Origin: a virus
Length of the DNA: 20,627 bases
Strand: one strand, 5' to 3'
IMG/VR virus record: IMGVR_UViG_3300025645_000574
Coordinates: 1-20,627 of that record
The notes under the pieces were generated by a model that saw only the letters and a program-made list of their open reading frames with translations, searched no databases and was not told the DNA's origin. This document shows, in pieces, positions 2,455 through 20,591 of this stretch. Each line of letters opens with the position of its first letter. Within the stretch, counting starts at the first letter, position 1. The position numbers were made by a program, and so were the translations under genes.

Positions 2455-2586
2455 TTATTTTCTCCGGCTTTTGGGCTTCGGTTTCTTCATAGAAGCCACA
2501 TGTTTTTTCAAAGTCTCAGCCTGCTTCTTATGAGTCTTAGAGGCTTTTTCTAAACCTTTTATAACTTTTTTTACTTTACGAACCAC
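2455..2586 (-). CDS. Small Lys-rich protein (43 aa), GTG start
   Basis: The frame starts at GTG 2586-2584, which overlaps the last base of the TAG stop of the preceding gene, and ends at TAA 2457-2455 directly before the ATG of the tail fibre gene. AGAGG lies about 7 bases upstream of the GTG. The protein (MVRKVKKVIKGLEKASKTHK...) is strongly basic, with 17 Lys among 43 residues, and looks helical. It fills the gap between two structural genes exactly, as expected of a real gene in a tightly packed operon. I do not recognise a family. It may bind nucleic acid or be a minor virion component; this is inference only. Confidence 0.6.
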   Translation of the reverse strand: MVRKVKKVIKGLEKASKTHKKQAETLKKHVASMKKPKPKSRRK

Positions 2587-3248
2587 TATGCTACCTCTTC
2601 CCAATTTGGCGTTTGACTGTCATCAATAGTAGACCAGCTTGCGTCTTGGCCCGGAACAACTTTTCCCCAAACCAACGCGCCGCCACACAAACCATCAGCA
2701 GACACACCTGTAACAGCAACGTCAGCCGCTGCAGTCGCAGTGACAGTTCCAATCGCTGATGTAAGTTCAAACCCTGAAACACTGATCGTGTTGTTTGTAA
2801 CCAGCGAGATAGTACCAAGCGCAGACGTACCAGCGTTACCTGTAACGGATACATTTGCTGCGGCGTCTGTCGTAATCGATCCGACGGATGCCGTTCCAGA
2901 AACGCCTGTGACAACGGCTGTGCCTGCCGCATCGACGGTGATCGTACCGATTGCAGACGTTCCGACATTGCCTGTAACTGACGTGTTAGCGGCTGCTGTA
3001 ACTGTGACTGAACCGACTGCACTTGTGCCTGCAACGCCTGTGACGCTTGTGTTAGCCGCCGCTGCAACGGTGACAGATCCAACTGCGCTCGTTCCTGCAA
3101 CGCCTGTAACCGAAGTATTAGCTGCTGCCGCAACTGTAACTGTGCCAACGGCTGAAGTCCCTGCGACACCCGTGACAACAACTGGGATTGGTTCACCCCA
3201 TGTGCCTTGGCCCCAAGTGCCTCTACCCCAGCCAGTAACATTCGCCAC
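2586..3248 (-). CDS. Virion structural protein with 22-residue beta repeats
   Basis: The gene starts at GTG 3248-3246, with AGGA 8 bases upstream, and makes 220 residues. The N-terminus is MANVTGWGRGTWGQGTWGE. Residues 25-178 are seven tandem 22-residue units of the type VTGVAGTSAVGTVTV + AAAANTS. The tail, residues 179-220, is Trp-rich (LVWGKVVPGQDASW, then NWEEVA). Trp/Gly-rich ends around Val/Thr/Ala/Gly beta repeats suggest a fibrous virion protein such as a head or tail fibre or spike. This family accompanies tail fibre genes in marine phages. The exact place in the particle cannot be told from sequence. A second long frame in the same region on the same strand, shifted by one base, is a shadow produced by the repeats. 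Confidence 0.8.
   Translation of the reverse strand: MANVTGWGRGTWGQGTWGEPIPVVVTGVAGTSAVGTVTVAAAANTSVTGVAGTSAVGSVTVAAAANTSVTGVAGTSAVGSVTVTAAANTSVTGNVGTSAIGTITVDAAGTAVVTGVSGTASVGSITTDAAANVSVTGNAGTSALGTISLVTNNTISVSGFELTSAIGTVTATAAADVAVTGVSADGLCGGALVWGKVVPGQDASWSTIDDSQTPNWEEVA
2715..3176 (-). repeat. Seven tandem 66-bp units
   Basis: Seven in-frame 66-base units encode the 22-residue repeats of the surrounding gene. The first three units (N-terminal, about 2979-3176) are nearly identical in protein and DNA; the later ones are more diverged. This pattern points to recent duplication at the 5' end of the array. Confidence 0.85.
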
Positions 3249-5021: not shown

Positions 5022-5906
5022 TTAGGTCCTGTAGTAATCGTACGACGGGCTAATTCGTAACGAAGCACGATCACGATCTTCGTCCATCGCGCGTTGCATT
5101 TCTTCTTCATACACCTGCTTCAACACACCCATCATTTGAGGATTACGCTTCATCGCTAGGTAATACGCTAAACCAGCGGTCAAACAAGGGTAGAAACGGA
5201 AGGGGACGTCAACAGTGTTGGTGTTGGTATCTGCATCGTCAATACGAGTCAATCGATTGAACTTGACGACATCCGTGTTATTTTCGGGCGCAGGCCAAAC
5301 TTTGAGTATCGGCGTGATCTGTCTGTCTAAGAAAAACTCGTTCACCCTACCGGTTTGAGCTTTGTTTGGTATGTTGAGGTAGCTAGACCGACTCACACGT
5401 TCTATTTGGAAATCGGTGCTGTCTCTTGTAACAACCGCCGATAATATGTCGATGGTGCTTCGCACGTCACCGAAATCGACCGCCGCACTAACCGTCGTCG
5501 TAGCCGCACTGGTGCCACCCGTGATGGTTTCAGAAGCCGAAAAAGTGCCGCTTGGTATTGTAATCGCTAGAGTAGTAGAACTAGGTTTGCTAGTAATCGA
5601 CGCCGTGGCGCCGCTAGTGCCACCCGTAATCGTTTCTGCTACGGAGAAAGAACCCGAATCTCCAACAGTCATTGTCAAAGTGCCGCCGGGGTACTCTGTG
5701 ATACCTGTTGCTAGGGTTATCGTTGTTTGTTCGATCGTCCATTGATTGAGCCCACGGTTTGCCCAATCTGCAAACAACAAATTCAACGACCTGCGGGCGG
5801 TTTTCAAATCGTAGCCCGTACGGACCTCTAGCCCACAGCGTTCAAATGCCTCTTCGACATATTCGGCAACGTCTAATTCAAAGTTTTTGCTGCTGCTAGT
5901 TGTCAT
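5022..5906 (-). CDS. P22 gp4-like tail accessory (head completion) protein with inserted repeat domain
   Basis: From ATG 5906-5904 the product has 294 residues; an upstream in-frame TTG at 5921 is possible but has no ribosome site. The N-terminus (residues 6-57, FELDVAEYVEEAFERCG, then LKTARRSLNLLFADWANRG, then WTIEQ) and C-terminus (VPFRFYPCLTAGLAYYLAMK, then EEEMQRAMDEDRDR) fit the P22 gp4-like family, which seals the portal after packaging. Residues about 74-146 look like an insertion: two copies of a G-S/T-F-S-x-x-ETITGGTS-x-AT beta unit (85-104 and 120-139). They interrupt the usual run from the TEY strand to the DILSAVV strand. The ATG overlaps the stop of the gene upstream by 11 bases. 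Confidence 0.7.
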   Translation of the reverse strand: MTTSSSKNFELDVAEYVEEAFERCGLEVRTGYDLKTARRSLNLLFADWANRGLNQWTIEQTTITLATGITEYPGGTLTMTVGDSGSFSVAETITGGTSGATASITSKPSSTTLAITIPSGTFSASETITGGTSAATTTVSAAVDFGDVRSTIDILSAVVTRDSTDFQIERVSRSSYLNIPNKAQTGRVNEFFLDRQITPILKVWPAPENNTDVVKFNRLTRIDDADTNTNTVDVPFRFYPCLTAGLAYYLAMKRNPQMMGVLKQVYEEEMQRAMDEDRDRASLRISPSYDYYRT

Positions 5907-6570
5907 TATATAAGTTGTCAAAAATTTGGTTTACATCAAGCGTGTAATCTAAATCGGATTTTGAGTAATGTATATGCGCAGATGGCTTAAAGTCTGGTCC
6001 ACCCTCTCCTGTTTCAAACCATGCCGGATGCGTAACACGCACTCTGTTATTAGGCAGAGCCACTATATTACCGGTCCAACTTCCTGCGTCGAGCAACTGC
6101 AAAACATGACTTTGCTTGTGCTGGGCAGGATCATCCGCAATCTCGCTCTCTGTGTAATCCACCGTAAACAAATACTTTGCCGGGTACATTTCACCGTCAA
6201 TCTTGGCTAACCAAGGACAAGGCGTAGCTCGATCCAAAACGTAGACCGCGTGGTGGTGTGAGCTACAATCCCAAGGTTGCGCAGCCCACACCGGCATAGC
6301 TTCCGGCCACTCTTCTAATGGAATATCGCCTACTAAAGCGGTAATCGGCATGCGAGCCCACATTGCACCACCATGCACCGTGTCCTCTTCTTCGCCTTCC
6401 GCTTCTATGCCGGTAAAAATGACTTGAAAACTCAAGCACCTACACGGCATCGTAGTGACACCAATCACCATTGCATGAAGAAATTCCCCGTGATATTTCT
6501 CATGGTTGTGCGTGTATTCACGCCGCACCCAGCACTTAAAGTGCGGGATGTTAGATTGTAAATAGGCCAT
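5896..6570 (-). CDS. Conserved phage protein of unknown function, virion-region
   Basis: The product has 224 residues, starting MAYLQSNIPHFKCWVRREYTHN. It is rich in His, Trp and Cys, with HHHAVYVLDRATPCPW in the middle (about 124-139) and a C-terminal HIHYSKSDLDYTLDVNQIFD. No membrane segment or signal peptide is apparent. I recognise the start and the AMWARMPITALVGD segment (about 69-82) as a recurring type in marine phage structural regions, but no biochemical function is known to me. It lies 2 bases after the Lys/Gly-rich gene and overlaps the gp4-like gene, so it is co-translated with neck proteins. The His/Cys content would allow metal binding, which is only a guess. Confidence 0.75.
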   Translation of the reverse strand: MAYLQSNIPHFKCWVRREYTHNHEKYHGEFLHAMVIGVTTMPCRCLSFQVIFTGIEAEGEEEDTVHGGAMWARMPITALVGDIPLEEWPEAMPVWAAQPWDCSSHHHAVYVLDRATPCPWLAKIDGEMYPAKYLFTVDYTESEIADDPAQHKQSHVLQLLDAGSWTGNIVALPNNRVRVTHPAWFETGEGGPDFKPSAHIHYSKSDLDYTLDVNQIFDNLYNDN

Positions 6571-6572
6571 TC

Positions 6573-6845
6573 TTAGATTTTGCCGCCTACCTTGTCACCT
6601 TTTTTCTTGACCTTGCCGCCCATTCGATAGCCTTTAGTAGCCATCTTGCCGCCATTCTTCATGCCTTTTGGCTTAACGCCGCCACCATTTTTCATGCCGC
6701 CGGGCATCATTTCTTTTTTACCGCCCATAGCGCCGCCTTTCGACTTCATTTTGACGCCTTGTGCGCTACCCTTGCTTTTCATGTTTTTCTTTTTAGGCGA
6801 TGCTTTTTTCTTAAATCCGCCCATTCCAAGATTTACTCTAGACAT
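6573..6845 (-). CDS. Lys/Gly/Met-rich low-complexity basic protein
   Basis: The product has 90 residues and is almost entirely Lys, Gly and Met. Irregular repeats of the type MKNGG / MKSKGG / KGYRMGGKV occur throughout. There is no predicted globular fold. GAGG lies 6 bases before the ATG. Such KGGxMKKKG proteins recur in marine phage structural modules. The extreme basic charge suggests binding to packaged DNA, RNA or an acidic virion surface, but no function is established. It is the first of five small genes here (6573-7985), four of them strongly basic. Confidence 0.7.
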   Translation of the reverse strand: MSRVNLGMGGFKKKASPKKKNMKSKGSAQGVKMKSKGGAMGGKKEMMPGGMKNGGGVKPKGMKNGGKMATKGYRMGGKVKKKGDKVGGKI

Positions 6846-6852
6846 ATCAACC

Positions 6853-7176
6853 TCACAGATATTTCGTTTTTTTCCTGCGATCGCTCATAATAGCGCCGCA
6901 ACCTCTGGCGATCTGTTGACGAACCTCGCCCCCATTCCGCATCTTTACAGTGGCTTTCTTCGTGTTTGCCACTACTGTTTTGCCCTTTTTGCCTTCTTTC
7001 TTCTTTTTGCGCGCGGTTGCTGCACGCTCCTCTTTCGTCAGACTTCTTGCTTTCGACTCGGGTAAACAACGATCAGGGTTTCGCTTGTCAGGAGATGTGC
7101 CACATTTGCCGACAATATCGCCTTCGGCGTTGATACGAACCCAATTTTGATCGCGCCATTTCTTTAACTCGCCCAT
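6853..7176 (-). CDS. Small basic phage protein with Cys pair
   Basis: The product has 107 residues. Residues 1-40 form an ordered part (KKWRDQNWVRINAEGDIVGK then CGTSPDKRNPDRCLPESKA) followed by a Lys/Arg-rich linker (residues about 46-70, ERAATARKKKKEGKKGK) and a mixed C-terminus ending RGCGAIMSDRRKKTKYL. The WVRI...CG...R.P.CLP.SKAR.LT layout resembles a small domain I associate with other phage basic proteins (W-V-D ... CG ... YPKCVP-type). I cannot assign a function. GGAG lies 7 bases before the ATG, inside the last codons of the gene upstream. Confidence 0.7.
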   Translation of the reverse strand: MGELKKWRDQNWVRINAEGDIVGKCGTSPDKRNPDRCLPESKARSLTKEERAATARKKKKEGKKGKTVVANTKKATVKMRNGGEVRQQIARGCGAIMSDRRKKTKYL

Positions 7177-7180
7177 CTAT

Positions 7181-7492
7181 CTAGCTCCACGCCTCAAGAC
7201 CCATGCTTTTGTTGATGATGGTGTTACCACCTGCAGCGACATACCCGCCTGCTAAAGACTCGCAAAGCCCCTTGTCTGTTGCCTCGTATGAAATAGTTTT
7301 GGACAACTCGTCAAAGGTGTTTTGCCAGTTCGCTATCGTTTGATCAATTACACTGTCGGTAAGAGTGCTATCTTCCTCTAAGTCGGCTCTAACTTGGGTC
7401 AAAAACCAAGATTTAAGTTCAGCAAGATTGTCGTCATCGTTTGCAAACAACGTCCCGTATTTAGTCCCTGTCTGCACACGATAGATGTCCAT
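7181..7492 (-). CDS. Hypothetical acidic phage protein
   Basis: The product has 103 residues and is acidic, unlike the basic proteins around it. It starts MDIYRVQTGTKYGTLFAND, has a helical middle (LAELKSWFLTQVRADLEED then VIDQTIANWQNTFDELSKTI) and a Gly/Ala-rich stretch (ESLAGGYVAAGGN) near the end. No known motif is visible. The ATG shares a base with the TAA stop of the gene upstream (TAATG), so it is coupled to the small basic protein gene there. Function unknown; a partner of the basic proteins is possible from opposite charge, but that is speculation. Confidence 0.7.
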   Translation of the reverse strand: MDIYRVQTGTKYGTLFANDDDNLAELKSWFLTQVRADLEEDSTLTDSVIDQTIANWQNTFDELSKTISYEATDKGLCESLAGGYVAAGGNTIINKSMGLEAWS

Positions 7493-7707
7493 TACTTTTT
7501 CTTTTTGCTGCCTTTGGCGTAATTGGGGTCTTTACAGTATTTCGATGCCGCCATGTTTGCGTAAGCTGACGGATACGTGTCAAAAGTGCGTTTTGCCCAA
7601 GCTTTGCCCGCAGGACATATTTTGCTGCCTTTACTTTTTTTTGAGGCGCCGCCGCCCTTCGCGTAATAGGTCAAACCTCTGGGCATGTCTCCGCGTGTCA
7701 TTACCAT
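7492..7707 (-). CDS. Small basic protein with CPAGKAW...YPSAYAN...YCKDP motif
   Basis: The product has 71 residues. A flexible Gly/Lys-rich N-terminus (residues 1-30) leads to a compact motif with two Cys (CPAGKAWAKRTFDTYPSAYAN followed by MAASKYCKDPNYAK) and ends in a Lys tail. I recognise this motif as one shared by many small phage proteins, without a known function. ATG 7707 overlaps the stop of the gene upstream and has GGAG 9 bases before it; a second ATG at 7701 would give a protein two residues shorter. The paired Cys and Lys tail suggest a nucleic-acid-binding or virion role. Confidence 0.7.
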   Translation of the reverse strand: MVMTRGDMPRGLTYYAKGGGASKKSKGSKICPAGKAWAKRTFDTYPSAYANMAASKYCKDPNYAKGSKKKK

Positions 7708-7985
7708 GCGTCACAACTCCAATACCTAGCGGTAAATTTATCTTTCGCAGTGTCACAATTATGGCGGGCTCTAAAGTTCTTACGACGACCCGGTTGGCTT
7801 TTTTTAATAGTCATGTCTGGATCTCCAAACCGTACTATCTTTACCTCGGTGCCTTTTTTTGCAAGAACTGCGGACTTTTTGTTTTTGCCCGGTGTTCTTT
7901 TTGGCTGGTTGTACCCAGAAAAAGTTTCACCTCGGTACTGTAAGCGGCCCGAGGGTGTTCTTTTAACGTCTTTGGTTGTCGCCAT
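7701..7985 (-). CDS. Small phage protein with FGDPxM...RARHNC...YWSC motif
   Basis: The product has 94 residues. A basic N-terminus is followed by the run KIVRFGDPDMTIKK, then GRRKNFRARHNCDTAKDK and ARYWSCDAW at the C-terminus. This FGDP...RK.FRARHNC...K..ARYWSC layout is a recurring phage domain that I recognise but for which I know no firmly assigned function. Two Cys and one His in the last 25 residues could bind a metal. It starts 3 bases after the stop of the gene upstream with a poor ribosome site, so it may be translated by coupling. Its last bases overlap the next ATG. Confidence 0.75.
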   Translation of the reverse strand: MATTKDVKRTPSGRLQYRGETFSGYNQPKRTPGKNKKSAVLAKKGTEVKIVRFGDPDMTIKKSQPGRRKNFRARHNCDTAKDKFTARYWSCDAW

Positions 7986-7987
7986 CG

Positions 7988-8602
7988 TTATGCATGAAAA
8001 GTAGTTAGAGTCAAAAACGTGCTTACCGTATATTGCACAAAAATACCGGCAGTGAACAAAACACCTTCTTCTGGCACGATCACGTCTCTTGTAGCAGTAG
8101 CAGACCCCACGGAGCTTATCTTCATCAAGCTAGTGCCCGAAGGACTAGTGGTCAAAAAATCCACGTTGCCCGCGTTTGCCGTGCTGGTCAAAAAGGCGCC
8201 TTTTAATCGAGCCCTACCTGCAAAAATAACGTCGGAAGCGTCGGCGCTGATGCCTGCTTTCACGTTGCCCGCTGGATCGCCTACTGCCGTGATACTCGCT
8301 ATCGTCAAAAAGAAGTTACTACTAGTCGCAACACCTGCGTTCGCACCAGTGACCGTTTCAGTTTGAGAATCGCCGTTTACGTCTGTACCGACTACGGTAA
8401 AAGATATTTCGTCGTCATCGCCCGCTGAAGTGATAGTCACCTTTCTGGCATGACTAAGTGTCACAGATCCACCGGAGGCTAATGCGCCACCTATCGTCAA
8501 GGCGGCGTTGTTGCCTACTGCCGCATTTGCGGATATTCCATCATCATCCGCTGCAACAGTGTCAGCCGTAATAGTAACTGAAATTACATCTGAGCCTGAC
8601 AT
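7988..8602 (-). CDS. Beta-rich virion structural protein
   Basis: The product has 204 residues, with almost no Trp or Cys and abundant Ala, Gly, Thr, Val and Ser. Strand-like runs (VTLSHARKVTITSAGDDDE, ISFTVVGTDVNGDSQTETVTG, VIVPEEGVLFTAGIFVQYTV) suggest an Ig-like or jelly-roll surface protein. The NGDxQTETVTGANAG run is a type I have seen in marine phage virion proteins. AGGAGA lies 6 bases before the ATG. Its position after the capsid terminator and beside another beta-rich gene suggests a decoration or tail-associated protein. The exact function is unknown. Confidence 0.75.
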   Translation of the reverse strand: MSGSDVISVTITADTVAADDDGISANAAVGNNAALTIGGALASGGSVTLSHARKVTITSAGDDDEISFTVVGTDVNGDSQTETVTGANAGVATSSNFFLTIASITAVGDPAGNVKAGISADASDVIFAGRARLKGAFLTSTANAGNVDFLTTSPSGTSLMKISSVGSATATRDVIVPEEGVLFTAGIFVQYTVSTFLTLTTFHA

Positions 8603-9289: not shown

Positions 9290-10195
9290 TTACGCGCCCG
9301 GAGTACCAAACACGGCACGCCAATCGCTGACGCCGAAAGAGTATCTTTCGCGAGCTTTGAAGCGCATGTTGCCGGTGTCAAAGTCCCCTTCCATCGCTGT
9401 TTTGATGGGGGTTCTGTTGAACAGTTTGAAGCCGTTAGGAGCGTCTGTCTTGATGAAGAAAGCGTCACTGTCCGTAAGGAAGTGGTTCACTACTGCACCG
9501 TCAGGAAGCATACCCATTGACTTGTTGGCGTTAATATCATTATCCGCCGTTCCGGAACGCAGGTTTGAGTTCAGCACTCGTTCTGCGATGAATTGCAGTT
9601 CTTTTGGAATGATCAACTTCATTCCACGAACGGCAATCTTCAGACCTCTTTCGTCGGTCAAACCAGCAATTTCAATCAGCATTTGCTCAAGCGACGTCTC
9701 ATTGAGGTCGGCAGCAGTTGCCAAAAGGTTTGTTTGGTTACCAGAGATAGAGGGGTGAGCCGCTGAACAAAGAGCCGCACCATCACCAATCGGTGATCCA
9801 GTGCTGAATGCATTGTTCAGAACGGTAGCTGCACGGATTTGCTTGGTTTGAGACATCGAACGAGCTAGTGCGCGTGTATAACGTGCTGCCAGACGGTCGT
9901 ACAAATTGTCTTCTATGGCTTCCTCGGTGATCGAAAAAGCCAACGCTATTGTTTCCATCGTATATCGTGCAGTGTAAGTCTCCTGCGCGTCATCAAATGA
10001 AATTGCGGTGCCTTCTGATTTCACAGGGGCAGTACCAAACCCTGAAAGCATGACTTCTTCTTCGAACGCTCGGTCAGAAGTTTCTTCGTCAAAAATTTCA
10101 GCGTGCTCTTGATCGTAACGATCATACTCCAAGCCGAACAAAGCATTTAGGCCGGGTTCAAGCTCTTTCGCTAATTGTGCGCGAGTAATAGGCAT
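9290..10195 (-). CDS. Major capsid protein (HK97-fold type)
   Basis: The product has 301 residues. Residues 45-100 (LSGFGTAPVKSEGTAISFDD to AFSITEEAIEDNLYDRLAAR) fit the E-loop and following spine-helix region of HK97-fold capsid proteins. The GAALCSAAHPSISG segment (139-152) and the C-terminal NRTPIKTAMEGDFDTGN then MRFKARERYSFGVSDWRAVF (260-296) match a group of major capsid proteins common in phages of this layout. There is no cleaved N-terminal scaffold extension and the gene begins directly with an ordered helix. AGGAG lies 6 bases upstream. It follows the scaffold candidate and a decoration candidate and is followed by a strong terminator, consistent with a highly expressed late gene. 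Confidence 0.9.
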   Translation of the reverse strand: MPITRAQLAKELEPGLNALFGLEYDRYDQEHAEIFDEETSDRAFEEEVMLSGFGTAPVKSEGTAISFDDAQETYTARYTMETIALAFSITEEAIEDNLYDRLAARYTRALARSMSQTKQIRAATVLNNAFSTGSPIGDGAALCSAAHPSISGNQTNLLATAADLNETSLEQMLIEIAGLTDERGLKIAVRGMKLIIPKELQFIAERVLNSNLRSGTADNDINANKSMGMLPDGAVVNHFLTDSDAFFIKTDAPNGFKLFNRTPIKTAMEGDFDTGNMRFKARERYSFGVSDWRAVFGTPGA

Positions 10196-15614: not shown

Positions 15615-17672
15615 CTAAGCTCCAAAGCTACCGATGCCTCGATTCAAGCCTACATCACCCCCGTAGCGCATACCACCCGGATTCGCTATGTCAACAATTT
15701 CGGGATCTTTACGAGCCGGTTTTCCCGGACCCCCGCCACCTTGTCGTACACAAACGGGTTTGCCATTTACAAAGTTCAGGATGTAACCGTTACCACATCG
15801 ATACATTTGCGTAGGTTCTAGTCCAAACGTGCCGGGGGCCGTGCTTTGGGTGCCCGTATTAATAATGCCGGAGTTTTCCCCCGGTGCTGCTGACCCTGCG
15901 GTAAACGCGTCGGGATCAATGTCAGTAAAATCAGTCGTGTCAAACAACGACGGTACCGCTTGTTGAGCTACGGGTTTGTACACAGGCATCGTGTAGCCTG
16001 TTGCACGCTCTTCTTCTGTACCCTCAAACGGCATGTACGTGCGCTGAATGTCCATGCCTTGGGTTGTCGGGAATCCGGTGGTGTATGGCGATATCGTGTC
16101 CGCCACATCGAGATCCACCCGATTGAGTAACGATTGAATACCGGTAAGACCCAGACCGGTCGGTCGACCATACGCTCCCCGATCGATTGCCGTGTCTGTT
16201 TCTGTCGGTGTAGTAAATAACGGCGCTTCGGCTGCTTGTGCGGTTTCTGCGGCCTGCAAAAGCTCACCTTGTGTAGGTGCCTCGTAAATAGGATCGGGAT
16301 CAGGCGTGGCAGCTATCTGTGCTTCCATTGCAACACGATCCGCTGCTTGCTGGGCAGCCAACTGCTCCGCTGCTTGAAGCTGGGCGGCGGCTTCTTGATC
16401 TGCGACTAACTGTGCAGCTTGTTGTGCTGCAAGCTGCTCTGCCGCTAGTTGTTCCGCAGCCAACTGTTCTGCTATCAGGGCCTTTTCTGCTTCTTGGGCA
16501 GCAAGCAATTCAGACGCAAGCCTTTGAGCTTCTTCGGCGGCGGCTTGTTCTTGAGCTATGCGAGCCGCTTCTTGCTGCGCTAATAGATCCGCTGCCGCTT
16601 GCTCGTTTGCAATACGAATGGCTTCTTGTTCTGCCGCCACGCGTACAGCCTCTTCTTCTGCGATTCGGATTTGTTCGGCCTCTTGTGCTGCAAGTACGTC
16701 TGCTGCAGCTTGTTCAGCGGCTAATATTTCTGCTGCGGATGGCCCAGCAACCACAGGGGCTACCTCTGCAGGGGGCAAATAAACAGGGTCGGCAGGAACC
16801 GTTGCAACCGGAGCGGCTACAGGGGCTTCGGCTACCGCCGCCGGAGTGGTTTCGACAGGCGCTGCCGCAACGGGCGTCGTTGCTACAGGAGTGGTAGCTA
16901 CAGGAGTGGTAGCTACCGGCGTAGTAGCCACGGGATCGGCTGCTACTTCTACAGTCTCAACAGGTGTTGTGGCTACCGGCGTTGTGTCGACAGGTCGTGT
17001 ACCGCCGCGATTTTGATAGTTTTCTATGGTCGGGGATTGAAGGACGTCCGTGCCTTCGTATAACAACATGCCCGGTTCAAACGGGGTTTGGTTCGGTGCT
17101 GTGCCATAAATAGTCTGTTCTGGCATGCCTTCGGGGTTTTGGAAAGCCGCCGCCTGTTCAAGAGCCCTTTGTTGCGCTATCAAATCTTGTGTCGTAGGCA
17201 TCGCTGGCGCGGCTGCCGGAGTTGTTTGTGTCGCCTGCTGTGCCGCAAGAGCCTCTGCGGCTTGTGCAGGAACTGCGTAAGCGGGTAATGCAGATGGATC
17301 GATCTGCACATTTGAAAAATCTAGTTCGGGTACAAAACGACCCATGCCTCCACCACGGAACATGCCAACAGGTTCTTGTGTTTCACGTGAAACACGTGCA
17401 AGGGGTCCCTGTGTGTAACCACGCAATAGGCCCGAGAGCCCCGGTCCGATTACACGACCACCTTCTGAAAACCCTTCGGGTGGAAACTGGTCTGGCGGTG
17501 TTTGTTCTTTGATCTGCCGTCGAAGGTCGTTTATTTCGTCCATCGTCTTACGTTGCTTTGCTTCCAGACGTTTGCGAGTCACCGCAGTCATGGACTCTTC
17601 AGCCAACTCCCGCCCTTGTTTCATAGCTCGGCTTTTTGCGGCACCTAACATTCTCAAAAGCATTGGTAGCAT
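15615..17672 (-). CDS. Large Ala/Gln-rich coiled-coil protein of unknown role, contains an embedded parS
   Basis: The product has 685 residues. The N-terminus is helical and basic (MLPMLLRMLGAAKSRAMKQG, RKRLEAKQRKTMDEINDLRR), then Gly-rich segments (GFSEGGRVIGPGLSGLLRGY). Residues about 229-270 are (TTPVA)n repeats; residues 313-450 are an almost continuous Ala/Gln/Glu coiled-coil (AEQLAAEQLAAEQLAAQQAA). The C-terminus has a small ordered part (YRCGNGYILNFVNGKPVCV, 624-642) with two Cys, then a Gly-rich end. GAGGG lies 6 bases before the ATG. Between terminase and portal one would expect a packaging or virion protein, and the shape suggests a fibrous or internal protein. I do not recognise a family. 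The bases for VSRET (94-98) form a perfect parS palindrome. Confidence 0.75.
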   Translation of the reverse strand: MLPMLLRMLGAAKSRAMKQGRELAEESMTAVTRKRLEAKQRKTMDEINDLRRQIKEQTPPDQFPPEGFSEGGRVIGPGLSGLLRGYTQGPLARVSRETQEPVGMFRGGGMGRFVPELDFSNVQIDPSALPAYAVPAQAAEALAAQQATQTTPAAAPAMPTTQDLIAQQRALEQAAAFQNPEGMPEQTIYGTAPNQTPFEPGMLLYEGTDVLQSPTIENYQNRGGTRPVDTTPVATTPVETVEVAADPVATTPVATTPVATTPVATTPVAAAPVETTPAAVAEAPVAAPVATVPADPVYLPPAEVAPVVAGPSAAEILAAEQAAADVLAAQEAEQIRIAEEEAVRVAAEQEAIRIANEQAAADLLAQQEAARIAQEQAAAEEAQRLASELLAAQEAEKALIAEQLAAEQLAAEQLAAQQAAQLVADQEAAAQLQAAEQLAAQQAADRVAMEAQIAATPDPDPIYEAPTQGELLQAAETAQAAEAPLFTTPTETDTAIDRGAYGRPTGLGLTGIQSLLNRVDLDVADTISPYTTGFPTTQGMDIQRTYMPFEGTEEERATGYTMPVYKPVAQQAVPSLFDTTDFTDIDPDAFTAGSAAPGENSGIINTGTQSTAPGTFGLEPTQMYRCGNGYILNFVNGKPVCVRQGGGGPGKPARKDPEIVDIANPGGMRYGGDVGLNRGIGSFGA
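16863..16934 (-). repeat. 15-bp tandem repeats encoding TTPVA
   Basis: About four 15-base units (GTAGCTACAGGAGTG type on the plus strand) encode TTPVATTPVA and so on, residues 247-270 of the surrounding gene. Two further copies lie just upstream at residues 229-239. Short exact units like these often vary in number between related phages. Confidence 0.85.
17379..17394. promoter_or_regulatory. Perfect parS (ParB-binding) palindrome inside a coding sequence
   Basis: TGTTTCACGTGAAACA is a perfect 16-base palindrome that equals the widely conserved bacterial chromosomal parS consensus (TGTTNCACGTGAAACA). A fixed 16-base word is expected about 5 times per million windows of this size. It encodes T-VSRET in the Ala/Gln-rich gene. 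A second CACGTG core lies 9 bases away (17393-17398 region). No ParA or ParB is encoded in the window. Binding in the cell is inferred, not shown. Confidence 0.75.
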
Positions 17673-19588: not shown

Positions 19589-20081
19589 TGATTACCTTTT
19601 CACCCAACTGGGCCTTCAACTCGTTCAACGCCTTCACAACCTCTTCTTTCGACATCTGGTCAATCGACCCGTGACGAACTTCACTCTTGTTGACGTAGAT
19701 GTCACCTTGGGCCAAGCCCCGTGCTTTCTCAGCCTGCACCGCAGCACTGTACGCCCCGGCTTCCAGAGCCTCGTCACGTATTCGTTGCAGATCTCTTATG
19801 TGTCGCGAGTAGTTAACCTCGTACTTCTCCGCTAACTCACGTCGCCGCTCACGCAGCGCCTTCGCAATATGCGGTGATTTGTTCGGATTTAACATCTCAT
19901 ACGCACGGGTGTGCGCACCTTTGACACTGAATCCCGCCTCTGCGGCCAGATTACGGAGCGTATCCTGACCCTCTCGCGTCGCAACCAACTCGACAAACTT
20001 CACTTGCTTTCCGGTTAGCCGACTATTTTCCGTTACGCGCGGGCGGCCACGCGTTTCAACTTTTCCTGCCTCTTTAGCCAT
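19536..20081 (-). CDS. terS: Terminase small subunit
   Basis: The product has 181 residues. A basic start (RGRPR) is followed by an N-terminal helix-turn-helix section LTGKQVKFVELVATREGQDT ... AAEAGFSVKGAHTRAYEMLN, the DNA-recognition domain of small terminases, then a central oligomerising coiled region (RHIRDLQRIRDEALEAGAYS) and an acidic C-terminal tail (VEADGVELLEDVKVQH) that would contact the large subunit. It selects the packaging start site and hands DNA to TerL. The ribosome site is weak (GGGA 10 bases upstream). It is the first gene after the GC-rich non-coding region, where a pac or cos site might lie. Confidence 0.85.
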   Translation of the reverse strand: MAKEAGKVETRGRPRVTENSRLTGKQVKFVELVATREGQDTLRNLAAEAGFSVKGAHTRAYEMLNPNKSPHIAKALRERRRELAEKYEVNYSRHIRDLQRIRDEALEAGAYSAAVQAEKARGLAQGDIYVNKSEVRHGSIDQMSKEEVVKALNELKAQLGEKVINVEADGVELLEDVKVQH

Positions 20082-20346
20082 GCATCAAATCCCATATCAG
20101 AGTGGACTTGGGACGCAAATATAGCACTTTTTTATCACAGTTAAAGGCCCTTGGTACTTCGTTGGTTTTTATTGTGAATTGTTTGCGTGAAACCTGCACC
20201 TTTACACGCTTTGTTTTTTTTACCCAACGGCCGCGTTGGAATCGCCGGGGCGTCGATCCCTGTGCATTGTTGTTAGCCTCTATTGTCCGGGGGACCCGAG
20301 CCGGGGACCCGGGCCCGGGGGCCATGCTGCGCGGACCGGGGGCCAA
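20074..20346 (-). CDS. Doubtful ORF upstream of terS (90 aa)
   Basis: This open frame begins within the GC-rich boxes (MAPGPRSMAPGPGSPARVPR) and ends 8 bases inside terS (ATGGCTAA). The last 45 residues (VSRKQFTIKTNEVPRAFNCD ... RPKSTLIWDLMHG) have a more protein-like composition. There is no ribosome site at the first ATG, the start is simply translated repeat, and a candidate promoter lies inside. It is probably non-coding, but the neat overlap with terS keeps the possibility open. Confidence 0.2.
   Translation of the reverse strand: MAPGPRSMAPGPGSPARVPRTIEANNNAQGSTPRRFQRGRWVKKTKRVKVQVSRKQFTIKTNEVPRAFNCDKKVLYLRPKSTLIWDLMHG
20118..20145 (-). promoter_or_regulatory. Weak candidate promoter for the packaging operon
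   Basis: On the minus strand TTTAAC (20145-20140), a 16-base spacer and TATATT (20123-20118) lie about 37 bases before the terS ATG, in an AT-rich stretch. The -10 matches 5 of 6 sigma70 bases; the -35 only 3 of 6. Phage late genes often use other polymerases, so this is tentative. Confidence 0.3.
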
Positions 20347-20540
20347 TATTCGCGGACCTTGGAAGTTAAAAAACGGCCCAAAATGACTTCCACGTTTTTA
20401 AAAACACAAACGTCCACGGGGCGCGGGCCTTGGATCACGGCCGGCGAATCGCGGACCGGGGGCCATGCGCCGGGGCCAATGGATCACGCACCACGGGGCG
20501 CGGTACGAATCAGGCCGCCCGGGGGAGGCGGGCCGGGGCC
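20245..20540. repeat. Cluster of eight CCGGGG boxes
   Basis: Eight copies fall within 296 bases. Spacings are 42, 14, 14, 21, 120, 14 and 63; all but one are multiples of 7. Several copies share the extension GGCCA(A/T). Only scattered single copies were seen in the rest of the window. Confidence 0.7.
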
Positions 20541-20564
20541 TGTTTAACCGGTAAAACGGCAGGC

Positions 20565-20591
20565 AAAAAAAAGGCCCGCACATGGCGGGCC
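20565..20591 (-). terminator. Rho-independent terminator of the upstream gene
   Basis: On the minus strand a perfect 7-bp GC stem (GGCCCGC / GCGGGCC, 20573-20591) with a 5-base loop is followed by eight T. It lies 20 bases after the stop codon at 20611-20613 and separates the upstream gene from the packaging operon. Confidence 0.85.

Follow-up and report, generated by a model that had tools for sequence, protein, structure and literature searches.

Tlr6F, or DUF5754 (PF19058), occurs in polinton-like viruses (PLVs), virophages, nucleocytoviruses and some phages, and is described as ubiquitous, uncharacterized and conserved across PLVs, nucleocytoplasmic large DNA viruses (NCLDVs) and bacteriophages (PMC12220804, PMC4642659); its occurrence in 'some poorly characterized phages' had been noted earlier (Yutin 2015, PMC4642659). 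The accessible parts of these sources, to which our statements on published work are limited throughout, state no virion role for it. DUF5754 and DUF5872 (PF19197) are both listed in the genome of Chrysochromulina parva virus, an algal giant virus, and DUF6321 (PF19846) forms part of the gp114-like proteins (T4-GC_119) of cyanomyophages; no paper on DUF6321 was found in the open-licence literature. Two viral systems with basic DNA-associated proteins are also relevant: ascovirus P64, a virion protein with two-cysteine motifs and a basic repeat region, condenses DNA in vitro (PMC6163548), and PBCV-1 has basic proteins associated with its packaged DNA (PMC3281028). Here, we describe five small genes at positions 6573–7985 (minus strand) of the viral DNA IMGVR_UViG_3300025645_000574, a stretch of 20627 bases referred to below as the window. 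The analysis points, with slightly better than even probability for the reading as a whole, to a head-module cassette of disulfide-stapled, DNA-binding basic virion proteins.

Read along the minus strand, A (7701–7985) is a basic protein of 94 residues, predicted to form β-hairpins and two helices, which ends RRKNFRARHNC...YWSC; B (7492–7707) is a basic protein of 71 residues with the pattern C..GKAWAKR..YPSAYANM..C; an acidic protein of 103 residues (7181–7492) forms an optional insertion between B and C; C (6853–7176) is a basic protein of 107 residues with the pattern W..NWVRI..G..CGTS....RCLP, a Lys-rich part and the C-terminal tail NGGEV..ARGCGAIMSDRRKKTKYL; and E (6573–6845) consists of 90 residues of low-complexity Lys/Gly/Met sequence with KNGG/KGG units. 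The original prediction, made from the DNA letters, had described four strongly basic proteins and an acidic one, with Cys pairs and an RARHNC/YWSC motif, and these features are all present. The isoelectric points (pI) of A, B, C and E are 10.5, 10.1, 10.5 and 11.0 (charges at pH 7 of +15.6, +13.5, +18.5 and +24.5), compared with 4.1 (−10.5) for the acidic protein. Overlapping starts, likewise predicted, are found at two of the four joints (7701–7707, 7 bases; 7492, 1 base), the other two being gaps of 4 and 7 bases. Clustering was assessed over 24 of the 27 listed open reading frames (ORFs), after omission of doubtful ORFs at 2586–3248, 20074–20346 and 20398–20583, the last two of which, at the contig end, are themselves basic (pI 11.8 and 11.5). 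Among the 24 genes, pI exceeds 10 solely in the four basic cassette genes, and a run of five adjacent genes with at least four above this value arose in 739 of 100000 shuffles.

The five genes are under purifying selection. Ratios of nonsynonymous to synonymous substitution (dN/dS) against four related loci (L013, L014, L016 and L017; L numbers denote the loci compared here) range from 0 to 0.072 where computable, which rules out spurious ORFs. Synonymous saturation prevented the calculation in three comparisons (C and B against L016, A against L017), the acidic gene has no counterpart in L016, and a fifth relative, L010, is uninformative because it is almost identical to the window.

PHROG profiles assign A to phrog_7595 (E = 3.8e-20), B to phrog_27331 (E = 1e-25) and C to phrog_23735 (E = 6.8e-21); the acidic protein has no convincing family (best PHROG E = 0.052) and E has no match in PHROG or Pfam. 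The original statement that no function is known for these proteins still holds, with the amendment that families exist, namely these three and, through relatives, DUF5754/Tlr6F and DUF5872. Scanned singly, 13 of 25 members of the A family match DUF5754 at E ≤ 1 (best 4.8e-4), the bit scores that are given (12.4 and 15.4) both lying below the cut-off of 27.4, and A of the window itself gives no match at E ≤ 1. This weakly suggests that A is a distant relative of DUF5754/Tlr6F; in contrast to that family, A of the window possesses a conserved Cys pair and stands first in a cassette that includes both DUF5872 halves. DUF5872 is matched, again singly, by six of 17 members of the family of B and its F-type relatives (B/F; best 7.1e-12) and by six of 20 C members (best 7.9e-15), with no match for B or C of the window. 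The F-type protein gp70 of Roseobacter phage CRP-2 covers DUF5872 positions 1–51 above the cut-off, while the C-type protein gp50 of HTVC027P covers positions 53–109 (E = 5e-4) and a further C-type protein positions 50–105, both below it. B and C thus appear to correspond to the N- and C-terminal halves of DUF5872, a single two-part profile that is represented in the window by two separate genes with the optional acidic gene between them. One annotation was rejected: the HVA1 label carried by the CRP-901 homologue of A (L008:3992–4249), for which zero Pfam families are found at E ≤ 1.

The cassette lies in a minus-strand head module that runs from the terminase through a repetitive protein, the portal (phrog_1216), a small gene, a GroES-like gene, a gene in the scaffold position and two more genes to the capsid protein, two capsid-module genes, the five small genes, a phrog_3704 gene and an SU10-adaptor-like head–tail connector. 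Its upstream flank is the major capsid protein (9290–10195, minus; phrog_371 major head protein, E = 1e-19; Phage_capsid_4, E = 2.5e-15) and its downstream flank the connector (5022–5921, minus; SU10_adaptor, E = 2.7e-7, above the cut-off), and this synteny with capsid genes bears out the placement in the structural module. Hidden Markov models (HMMs) of six modules were built for this analysis and gave no match to shuffled copies of 41921 ORFs. They were applied to IMG/VR loci taken as the best 80 per query among the matches listed; these sets are not random and include near-duplicates, and the cassette counts are lower bounds since loci cut by a contig end were kept in the denominators. Among the 80 loci nearest to A of the window, 69 have the order A–B/F–C, ten have A only and one has A–B. 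The corresponding set for A of HTVC106P comprises 36 loci with A–B/F–C, 39 with A only and five with other sets or orders, and that for A of HTVC008M comprises 54 with A only, 24 with a module termed G adjoining A and two with a fused C + B/F protein beside A. vB_FspM_immuto is a further phage carrying A.

In the window lineage, the place of the cassette is constant: capsid protein, often one or two small capsid-module genes, A, B, C and adaptor. The acidic gene is present in seven of the 80 nearest loci (L010–L014, L017 and L018), so that the acidic protein of the original prediction belongs to the window cluster and not to the core of the cassette. Of the 64 window-lineage loci that have both C and the adaptor, 50 contain between these genes an ORF with a pI above 9.5 whose Lys + Gly + Met content exceeds 38%, several examples consisting of KKMRGGGM-type repeats; we take the E-type ORF as the fourth cassette slot. 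The modules of 023Pt_psg01 are placed differently from those of the window, with the head–tail connector gene on one side and GroES on the other. Annotation readily misses members of the cassette: an ORF called in a different frame lies over B or C in the public records of C75C1 and CRP-2 (L005:7960–8148 and L004:2363–2548), and B of 023Pt_psg01 (L003:27156–27350) is unannotated. A conserved tail, NGG.V..ARGCGA[IV][ML]S.RRKKTK, ends C in the window (6853–6950) and many relatives (47 rows) and is found on B, not C, in 023Pt_psg01 (L003:27153–27347); a variant, KRGMGAALRGG, ends another ORF of 68 residues, and the tail is possibly a shared docking peptide.

A further set of 80 loci, obtained by scanning with a divergent C protein, shows that the first position is exchangeable. 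A is present in 20 of these loci, a DUF6321-type protein (D) in 51 and neither in nine, and A and D never occur together (0 of 80). C and then the adaptor follow A in 14 loci and D in 42, with the capsid-side flank also seen in ten and 38, respectively. A module with the PSAY motif of B/F accompanies them in 71 of the 80 loci, including all 20 with A and 44 of the 51 with D. D thus takes the slot of A in relatives, as an exchange; homology of A and D is not supported, since they have an RRK-S/N-F/Y-x-AR motif in common but an hhalign probability of 2%, and A has no Pfam match to DUF6321. We conclude that the cassette also moves between phage lineages: A of CRP-2 is 80.9% identical to A of the window and is followed in order by F, C and a Lys/Gly/Met-rich ORF, yet the terminases of CRP-2 and the window show no significant similarity (best E = 8.0). 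HTVC027P carries B, C and D together with an E-like ORF.

Modules of the cassette also occur in fusions, with 13 multi-module ORFs in all. GC119 of S-BM3 is a single C–F–G–D protein, proteins of P-SSM2 (gp114), Syn30 and RN05-S contain C, G and D with a PSAY stretch, and a contig from a metagenome-assembled genome (L302) encodes C–A–F within one ORF of 398 residues. The cyanomyophage fused proteins, which adjoin gp15/gp16 in P-SSM2, S-BM3 and Syn30, hold cassette modules except A, and the phrog_727 and phrog_3477 profiles contain C-like, D-like and, weakly (E = 0.01 and 0.03), F-like stretches. These gp114-like proteins differ from the window in being a single fused protein in place of separate genes. 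A is joined to a Peptidase_S78_2 (XkdF-type) domain in Roseobacter phage CRP-6 (E = 7.2e-18) and Vibrio phage IBT_VpB-34 (E = 2.4e-12), and to an XkdF-type protease in ICP1 gp125, which is annotated as a capsid protease; in gp18 of Methylophilales phage Melnitz, A comes after a cytidylyltransferase-like domain and a G module. DUF5824, an uncharacterized family, shares proteins with the A module at L257:2333–4285 and L278:4974–6164.

Such fusions are the basis of the main rival explanation, in which the mini-domains are prohead-loading or assembly adaptors: interaction tags that dock cargo (protease, cytidylyltransferase or other internal proteins) into the assembling head, their positive charge serving to dock to an acidic scaffold or capsid surface and not to condense DNA. 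Fusion of A to either the N- or the C-terminus of XkdF-type proteases and to the C-terminus of the cytidylyltransferase-like protein would suit this role, as would the diversity of long proteins that carry modules (36 stop-to-stop ORFs of over 150 residues with A) and the combination of a pterin-4a-carbinolamine dehydratase domain with G and C in one ORF (L319:1227–1988). Against it, the window lineage encodes the modules as free-standing proteins without a cargo, E is no more than a low-complexity basic sequence and the charge is high for the size of the modules. All 71 B, all 128 C, all nine D and 264 of 265 A unique module sequences are positively charged overall, with medians per module of +10.9 to +15.8, and this conserved positive charge fits nucleic-acid binding. 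We consider loading adaptors unlikely, if deserving of more weight than the rivals that follow. RNA binding, which the original prediction had offered beside DNA condensation, has no specific support.

Evidence for a place in the particle comes from cyanophages. In S-CREM2, 52 proteins were detected in CsCl-purified virions (PMC10665884, Table 3); our module scan covered positions 104900–140100 of 174876, including 18 of the 52 proteins listed from mass spectrometry (MS), and positions 1000–139000 of 228827 in S-SCSM1. Two S-CREM2 proteins on the virion list contain modules: gp137 (four unique peptides, 4.1% coverage) contains D (E = 4.5e-18), and gp160 (seven unique peptides, 13.1% coverage) contains C (1.6e-5), G (7.1e-10) and B/F (0.006) (PMC10665884). 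The last assignment, weak by HMM, becomes firm when gp160 is aligned with the B/F module of L168, to which 35 of 45 residues are identical (E = 1e-22); an HMM of window-lineage B sequences alone also matches gp160 (1.8e-4). C of the window is connected to gp160 through L221 (2e-10 and then 6e-8), and an HMM of window-lineage C proteins alone matches S-BM3 (1.2e-4) and S-SCSM1 gp029 (0.0044). The latter, with modules C, G and D and a PSAYASG stretch, is labelled a virion protein in its record; 45 virion proteins are reported by MS for S-SCSM1, and the label presumably reflects that detection. For S-CREM1, 14 virion proteins are stated. The virions of S-SM1, S-SCSM1 and S-CREM2 are reported to contain cytidylyltransferase-like proteins, which is also the type of protein to which A is joined in Melnitz. 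The open-licence literature contained nothing relevant on virion proteomics of vB_FspM_immuto or of cyanophage gp114.

The presence of relatives in virions also fits a second rival, namely nucleic-acid-binding proteins that are ejected with the genome, or made ahead of it, to act in the infected cell in host takeover or in shielding the incoming DNA, and that are mere passengers of the particle. The proteins are small, basic and conserved, and some homologues are found outside the head module, near a peptidase M15A in HTVC106P and upstream of the terminase genes in CRP-2. The fixed position between capsid and adaptor genes in the window lineage speaks against it, and no sequence pointer to a cellular target was seen; we judge it improbable.

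The Cys residues of the modules, counted in profile match columns, come largely in pairs. Of 263 unique A sequences, 261 have the core pair and the two that lack it are protease fusions; a second pair is found in 66 of the 263, and one sequence carries two additional Cys elsewhere. Of 128 unique B/F segments, 113 have Cys residues flanking the PSAY motif, one before and one after it, and the other 15 have aromatic residues in their place; a single Cys is never seen (ten of 138 PSAY segments with few Lys/Arg residues had been dropped before the count). The core pair of C is present in 93 of 93 sequences, and the tail of C of the window adds a third Cys outside the profile. The spacings of 13, 14, 18 and 27 columns do not follow a CxxC pattern, and these spacings and the paired gain or loss favour disulfides over zinc as the probable state of the Cys pairs. 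Zinc-binding mini-domains whose fold is held by a metal with Cys/His ligands would find support in a His two residues before the first core Cys of A, invariant in a 25-member alignment, and in the second Cys pair of A, but B and most C proteins have two Cys only, the spacings are unsuitable, aromatic residues stand in for the B/F pair and two protease-fused A domains lack both the Cys and the His, making this the least credible explanation and a very improbable one.

The AlphaFold2 (AF2) model of A comprises two β-hairpins and two helices (pLDDT 87, pTM 0.76); that of C has a mean pLDDT of 64.7 and a low-confidence tail. At E ≤ 1e-3, Foldseek with the A model returns 21 viral models, among them ICP1 ORF125 and a protein labelled XkdF. 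An iridovirus and a marseillevirus protein, which may be members of DUF5754, follow as weak matches (E = 0.047 and 0.051; TMq 0.54 and 0.53). A VIA-align search with A gave one row (Z = 2.3), which has no bearing on fold novelty, and a cyanophage module protein compared with the PDB matched ribosomal eS10 alone, and weakly (E ≥ 0.3).

Taken together, these observations lead us to propose that the cassette encodes a head-module set of small basic virion proteins organized in four slots, the first filled by A or a DUF6321 protein, the second by B or another PSAY module, the third by C and the fourth by E. The mini-domains encoded by these slots would enter the procapsid or head and remain in the particle. 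In A, B and C alike, a compact folded core held together by a single conserved Cys pair would carry positive surfaces or tails that bind phage DNA non-specifically, and E would act as a protamine-like, unstructured partner. Residence in the virion is the most secure part, and we consider it highly likely on the basis of capsid-gene synteny, the fusions of A with XkdF-type proteases and the listing of proteins with B/F, C, G and D modules among the virion proteins of a cyanophage; from these relatives we infer a place for the proteins of the window in the particle of their own phage. A location inside the head is probable, and for binding or condensation of DNA the chances appear to be even. 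The presence of cassette relatives in the particles of other viruses and the likeness to families of giant algal viruses together suggest proteins that are probably head-borne and DNA-bound. A more far-reaching version, in which a mobile chromatin-like cassette of two-cysteine mini-domains and a protamine-like repeat protein would coat and condense the genome in the heads of marine tailed phages, with the same domains in algal giant viruses and PLVs, is less likely than not.

Several observations weigh against this proposal. B of the window matches the cyanophage-type PSAY module of L168 weakly in a direct BLASTP comparison (E = 0.003), and gp160 is missed by an HMM made solely from C proteins of the window lineage, so that the connection of C to gp160 runs via intermediates. 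The A module is absent from the scanned stretches of S-CREM2 and S-SCSM1, including their MS-listed proteins, and its location in virions therefore rests on the slot exchange with D and on the fusions. The coverage of gp137 is only 4.1%, detection by MS neither separates head from tail nor excludes contamination, and the cyanophage homologues adjoin neck, terminase and tail genes. No virion proteomics of the window phage or its near relatives was found, including in the accessible parts of the HTVC027P papers. The gene order is not invariant, as C precedes A in six of the 20 A loci, and D in three of the 51 D loci, of the set obtained with the divergent C protein. The evidence from the Cys pairs comprises few independent events: the B/F pair changes state once on a weak tree, and two A sequences have a single extra Cys. 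A has no PDB sequence match and no Foldseek match to the PDB at E ≤ 0.001. Finally, the available part of PMC3281028 holds that there is no evidence of basic proteins contributing much to the neutralization of phage DNA.

Elsewhere in the window, the terminase large subunit is 57–67% identical to those of 023Pt_psg01, pelagiphages HTVC027P and HTVC023P and phage DSL-LC04. Directly upstream of A, a capsid-module protein (7988–8602, minus) without a PHROG family match sits between the capsid protein and A in some loci, and directly after the cassette, in some relatives only, lies the phrog_3704 gene (5896–6570; labelled ferredoxin, E = 2.7e-29). Between the terminase and the portal, 15615–17672 encodes an acidic protein of 685 residues with TTPVA and Ala/Gln/Glu-rich repeats and the tail MRYGGDVGLNRG, again with no PHROG match. 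The ORF at 2586–3248 has repeated VTGVAGTSAVGSVTV units and is presumably a repetitive tail or fibre-type protein. The Pro/Arg-rich basic ORFs at the contig end (20074–20583) have MAPGPR segments in common and may represent a repeat or an assembly artefact.

P64 offers a possible analogy, with no sequence relationship shown, for how the cassette functions; no match to the Pfam 2-cysteine adaptor occurs among the module proteins scanned. PBCV-1 may resemble it in its basic DNA-associated proteins and, unlike the window phage, is a eukaryotic virus with a different packing problem. The families themselves were already known as orphans, and what appears new is the cassette, its slot logic and its connection with virion proteomes and with the two DUF5872 halves; none of these was found in the open-licence literature on DUF6321, DUF5872, DUF5754 and Tlr6F, and earlier work elsewhere is possible. 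DUF5754/Tlr6F, DUF5872, DUF6321 and unnamed PHROGs can thereby be treated as components of a single testable system for which a virion location is predicted. Should the cassette indeed bind packaged DNA, this would contradict the view of basic proteins and phage genome neutralization expressed in the accessible part of PMC3281028. In the more far-reaching version given above, the orphan families of two unrelated virus realms would share one role, the organization of DNA in the virion.

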